Below, piece after piece: positions 8,917 through 8,953 of a stretch of 35,604 bases of DNA. Position 1 is the first letter of the stretch, and every line of letters starts with the position of its first letter. Position numbers and translations under genes: made by a program. The stretch lies in assembly GCA_026552955.1 (NCBI GenBank), contig JAPMTS010000049.1, forward strand, positions 1 through 35,604, given 5' to 3'. The notes beneath the pieces are model-generated. The model was not told where the DNA came from, did no database searches, and saw only the letters and a program-made list of their open reading frames with translations. The stretch is from Candidatus Methanoperedens sp. Lineage in GTDB: Archaea; Halobacteriota; Methanosarcinia; Methanosarcinales; Methanoperedenaceae.

Positions 8917-8953
8917 TATATAAAAATGTCGTATAATCCACATTATACGCAGT
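8917..8953 (-). promoter_or_regulatory. Recombinase promoter with dif-like inverted repeat
   Basis: On the minus strand a TATA box (TTTTTATATA, about 8916-8925) precedes the recombinase ATG. Just upstream is a perfect inverted repeat at 8930-8949: CGTATAAT-CCAC-ATTATACG. Read as a recombination core it gives GTATAA, six central bases, TTATAC. This is the arm/spacer layout of Xer dif sites, and the inner TATAAT/TTATA matches the archaeal dif arms as I remember them. It could instead be an autoregulatory operator. Confidence 0.55.

Follow-up and report, generated by a model that had tools for sequence, protein, structure and literature searches.

The xerA locus and its promoter palindrome

The window, that is, the whole stretch of 35,604 nucleotides analysed here (Candidatus Methanoperedens sp., contig JAPMTS010000049.1), carries a single XerA-type tyrosine recombinase gene on the reverse strand (xerA, 8054-8890), which encodes 278 amino acids from an ATG at 8890. 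The predicted protein passes the archaeal XerA equivalog model NCBIfam NF040815 (261 bits; cut-off 220) and aligns over its length, catalytic-motif region included, with P. abyssi XerA (PDB 4a8e, E 9e-49). It is the only close XerA homologue in the assembly, and its nearest named relatives come from Candidatus Methanoperedens genomes (76-94% identity). On the far side of xerA, before the proximal array described below, lies a predicted membrane protein of 96 amino acids (7757-8047), which is kept in the nearest clade only and gave no match in Pfam and NCBIfam.

Upstream of xerA, a perfect palindrome, CGTATAAT-CCAC-ATTATACG, occupies positions 8930-8949. A sequence-only reading of this DNA had proposed that the repeat has the layout of an Xer core site, and our analysis agrees: the 28-bp frame at 8926-8953 (no strand assigned) consists of exactly two 11-bp arms, ATGTCGTATAA (8926-8936) and TTATACGCAGT (8943-8953), around the 6-bp spacer TCCACA (8937-8942), with TATAA and TTATA at the spacer borders. 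The xerA TATA box, TTTTATATAC (8916-8925, reverse strand), lies directly downstream of the inner arm. Longest-ORF calling places the xerA start at a GTG at 8941, which falls within the palindrome and precedes the TATA box; since the TATA-like stretch adjoins the inner arm, the transcript start is expected at or just before the ATG.

The palindrome is the sole match with up to three mismatches in the window, and elsewhere in the assembly the same tolerance gave just CGTATAATCCACATGATCCG at C51:24376 (two mismatches). The exact core CGTATAA-N6-TTATACG has one match in this draft assembly. Perfect palindromes of 8-4-8 architecture occur three times in the window, with about 1.3 expected by chance. 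On single-sequence statistics the palindrome is weak, and its significance comes from relatives. Alignment with a known archaeal dif site bore out the resemblance to Thermococcales sites noted in the earlier reading: 16 of the 28 positions are identical to the published P. abyssi dif oligonucleotide (PMC2958812), a count that carries no significance value, and TATAA and TTATA fall in the same frame.

Conservation and variation of the site in relatives

A total of 31 Methanoperedens genomes, all drafts and none closed, were used for the comparison, together with two genomes of the sister genus. The 11-6-11 inverted repeat was found in 29 of the former and in both of the latter, where it reads ACTGCGTATAA-GATATA-TTATACGCAGT against the xerA TATA box. 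The exact core is present as a single copy in each of 18 genus genomes and never twice, as had been anticipated for a dif site, and variant sites such as ACTGTATATAA-N6-TTATATACAGT add 11 genomes. The two siteless genomes are 63-68% complete and also have no xerA match. Among 20 xerA loci, a perfect 11-6-11 repeat occurs at the site in 14 and in none of the shuffled copies of the same DNA; a fifteenth perfect repeat was found elsewhere than at the xerA-upstream site. The arms pair mostly at 10-11 of 11 positions in relatives, and at 8 of 11 in the window.

The placement beside xerA, on which the sequence-only reading depended, recurs in the relatives. The site lies no more than 604 bp upstream of xerA in 29 of the 30 readable upstream regions, and in 21 of the 30 its inner arm abuts the xerA TATA box as in the window. 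In eight genomes it lies 231-604 bp upstream, and several of these keep a degraded half-site at the xerA TATA box. In one genome (G013) it is on a different contig from xerA. One clade (locus L021, 2553-2906, and relatives) has an ORF of 117 amino acids with an HNH endonuclease motif between the site and xerA, the half-site at the TATA box being decayed.

Close xerA homologues are rare in other families of the same order. One locus (L192, G128:C46) from another family has an xerA with 63% identity, likely acquired by horizontal transfer; the start of this gene is closely preceded by ACTGCATATAA-TGTACG-ATAGACGAAGT, a degenerate sequence that resembles dif. Another locus (L084, G016:C6:27286-28125) is a second, divergent XerA-like gene (52% identity) with a perfect 11-6-11 palindrome, AAGTCTGCAAA-ATTGCC-TTTGCAGACTT, 292 bp upstream; gene and palindrome are perhaps a mobile xer module.

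Comparison of the left and right arms of the same site revealed 157 matches out of 174 at the outer six bases, whereas permutation of arm partners (10,000 trials) gave a mean of 123 and a maximum of 147. The permutation ignores ancestry, and as shared ancestry contributes to the matches the result is supportive rather than proof. A single change on the XerA tree accounts for each of the arm types ATGTC and AGTAC (support 80/69 and 100/98). From clade to clade the two outer arms vary together, which is what binding of both by a single protein would lead to. Sites with hybrid arms, that of the window included, are scattered tips on this tree. The two arms of the window differ in type: the promoter-side arm (8926-8936) has the ATGTC form known from a distant clade, its partner the ACTGC form, which both arms share in the sister genome G005 and in the near relative G024. 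Hybrid arms also occur in G008 and G006. The window spacer is identical to that of G024 and, reversed, to that of G007. A simple Xer crossover leaves the hybrid arms of the window unexplained, as it is the native xerA promoter that lies past the odd arm.

GC and tetramer skews do not switch polarity at the site in the four contigs analysed (171-360 kb), and so give no sign of a terminus there. In each of the ten genomes examined, the site and the full-length orc1/cdc6 genes lie on separate contigs, which shows only that the site is not close to these genes. A small ORF of 142 amino acids, 22 kb from the site in G005 (C55:124386-124637), matches only the C-terminal winged-helix part of Orc1/Cdc6, and similar short matches occur in G015 and G027. 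A search of 2.9 million viral contigs gave no match to either of the two arm types searched or to the AT-rich box described below. Ten matches to the CGTWACG array were found there, all of them without the dif core, and those inspected are simple tandem repeats or unrelated GC-rich DNA.

AT-rich box and CGTWACG arrays

Beyond the outer arm lies a conserved 30-bp AT-rich box, TATAAATTAAAATAAGAGTTTTGAATAAAA (9084-9113, forward strand), with weaker conservation upstream to about 9050. A search with the box sequence YATAAATTAAAATAARRGNNYNRAATAWAA, allowing one mismatch, gave a single match per genome in 26 of the 31 genomes; the box lies between the site and the distal array. The arrays (no strand assigned) consist of the heptamer CGTWACG, which is a palindrome except for its central base. 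The distal array (9130-9267) has six units, at 9130, 9157, 9183, 9209, 9235 and 9261, spaced 26-27 bp apart, the first of them 46 bp from the box start. The proximal array (7527-7637), past the xerA stop, has units at 7527, 7578, 7605 and 7631 and a single-mismatch CGTCACG near 7553. All ten exact heptamers of the window are thus in these two arrays, less than 1.5 kb from the site.

Pairs of heptamers spaced 25-27 bp apart were found in 29 of the 31 genus genomes and in both sister-genus genomes, with a reversed control near zero; in other families of the order such arrays are not above chance. Four contigs with a combined length of 956 kb have 72 heptamers, of which 37 lie within 2.5 kb of the site, an enrichment of about 50-fold. 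Among 121 spacings of 24-28 bp, 86 are 27 bp and 24 are 26 bp, which is close to 2.5 helical turns. The distance from the box start to the first array unit was compared in 26 genomes: it is 44-47 bp in 19, one unit further in three and 40 bp in two, and in two the unit is absent. The distance between the site and the box is not fixed (87-284 bp).

The sequence-only reading had also described phased arrays flanking the site. They are real and travel with it: in G013 the site, the box and nine array units keep their usual distances from one another, whereas the contig that carries xerA has none of them near the gene. It follows that the arrays go with the site and are not part of xerA or nif regulation. 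A nif-type operon (nifH, two PII-like genes and nitrogenase-like subunit genes; 9632-16909) starts just past the distal array of the window, and control of nif by the arrays was considered and rejected, because the arrays follow the site in genomes with other neighbours.

A further element was observed past the xerA stop in four loci (L011, L013, L014 and L025). It is a repeated hairpin, GTGGGCAG..CTGCCCAC, the two sequences being some 46 nt apart; after it come TTCGTATATATACGAA and a TATA-like stretch. It occurs in up to three copies beside the site, is absent from the window and has no match in Rfam.

Proposed function and known Xer systems

Judged by its conserved layout, its copy number and its likeness to known sites, the 28-bp element at 8926-8953 is very probably the chromosomal dif on which the archaeon's single XerA acts. 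By analogy with Xer biochemistry (PMC3646895), two XerA monomers would bind the 11-bp arms, the bound dif would pair with the second dif on a chromosome dimer, and cleavage by XerA where the arms meet the 6-bp spacer would resolve the dimer. In archaeal promoters the stretch recognised by TFB lies just upstream of the TATA box. The inner arm overlies this stretch, so XerA bound there should cover the TFB site, exclude TBP and TFB and repress xerA. Judged from the sequence, occupancy of dif by XerA is somewhat likely to act as such an autorepressor, and the level of XerA would then be tied to free dif. This autoregulation cannot be essential, because the site has moved upstream in the eight genomes noted above and away from xerA in G013.

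It is improbable that the palindrome serves purely as an operator for xerA transcription, bound by XerA or by another regulator, and has no part in recombination. Its exact position against the xerA TATA box in 21 of the 30 upstream regions is what such an operator would predict, but the symmetric arms surround a variable 6-bp centre with TATAA and TTATA at its borders as in known dif sites. Moreover, the eight genomes with a displaced site keep it symmetric 231-604 bp upstream while the half-site at the TATA box has decayed, and in G013 it is kept away from xerA altogether. Even less probable, indeed very unlikely, is that the site serves not as the host's dif but for the attachment of an integrative element that makes use of XerA. 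The hybrid arms of the window, G008 and G006 and the HNH ORF of one clade would suit such an element; however, nearly all genomes have one site and never two exact copies, the two arm types searched are absent from the viral contigs, and site and xerA have been inherited together across two genera.

With dif taken as real, the chance that the box and arrays serve another function (a centromere, a replication origin, a site of fork arrest, or a small RNA and its promoter) falls just short of even. Iterated palindromes around an AT-rich box recall an origin or a centromere, a TATA-like stretch lies inside the box, and the variable dif-box distance is unlike a rigid recombination complex. Against these functions, full-length orc1/cdc6 is on other contigs than dif in ten of ten genomes, and rearrangement has left box and array beside dif rather than beside xerA. 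As an RNA, the box has no match in Rfam and gave no consensus fold in five segments, a weak test as one segment was mis-chosen. An accessory role of box and arrays in recombination, similar to that of cer, is a plausible reading that we put somewhat below even: by analogy with cer (PMC2409434), they would form a nucleoprotein complex that governs the timing or the direction of recombination at dif. The variable spacing between dif and box speaks against a rigid synapse as at cer; the box and arrays could also act as a loader, organise a domain, serve as a site of segregation or have an independent function.

How Xer recombination is biased towards resolution in archaea, which have no FtsK, is described as open in the literature (PMC2958812), where a partner bound to the DNA flanking dif is proposed but not identified. 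The box and arrays possibly replace FtsK. Taking these parts together, we advance a scheme that we hold to be less likely than not: Methanoperedenaceae may control dimer resolution without FtsK through a putative protein that sits on the phased CGTWACG arrays and AT-rich box as a filter or loader at dif, with dif doubling as the autoregulatory operator of xerA. Staying with dif as they do, the box and phased arrays are concrete, conserved and good candidates for the helper that replaces bacterial FtsK. A dif site is now identified in anaerobic methane-oxidising archaea, and its placement would let XerA sense the occupancy of its own site. Among the papers covered by a literature search, none treats Methanoperedens together with XerA.

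The xer/dif modules already known include XerS/difSL and XerH/difH (PMC5357621) and the archaeal module of Sulfolobales (PMC2958812). A dif embedded in a promoter and combined with a box and arrays is absent from the published xer/dif accounts compared, to the extent that these were available. XerS/difSL (streptococci and lactococci) and XerH/difH (epsilonproteobacteria) likewise have a single recombinase and a dif beside its gene as one module, but they belong to other recombinase families, difSL is 31 bp long, and both depend on FtsK, which archaea do not have (PMC5357621). The ColE1 cer site with ArgR and PepA (PMC2409434) is alike in that the core Xer site is accompanied by accessory DNA of about 180 bp, to which proteins bind and which confines recombination to resolution. 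It differs in being a plasmid site used by XerCD with known proteins, whereas the Methanoperedens site is chromosomal, with arrays on both sides, a putative binding protein and a varying dif-box distance. The DNA beside the Methanoperedens core is conserved and linked to dif and is presumed to bind protein, but its geometry relative to the core is not fixed (87-284 bp), and for this reason the system is not classed as a cer-like member, only as possibly working alike.

Among the archaea, Sulfolobales share a dif near xerA with a short conserved flank on one side, and the available part of the account describes no promoter overlap or repeat arrays for them, unlike Methanoperedens (PMC2958812). 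Thermococcales share a single XerA, conserved AT-rich DNA flanking dif, and a 28-bp dif that is present once per chromosome and has two 11-bp arms around a 6-bp spacer with TATAA and TTATA at its borders (PMC2958812, PMC3646895). Their dif is not beside xerA, whereas that of Methanoperedens is in the xerA promoter, and the Thermococcales flanks of about 23 bp are far simpler than the box and phased arrays of Methanoperedens. In its XerA family, its 28-bp 11-6-11 site, its single copy and its likeness to known dif sites, the Methanoperedens system agrees with the archaeal XerA/dif systems.
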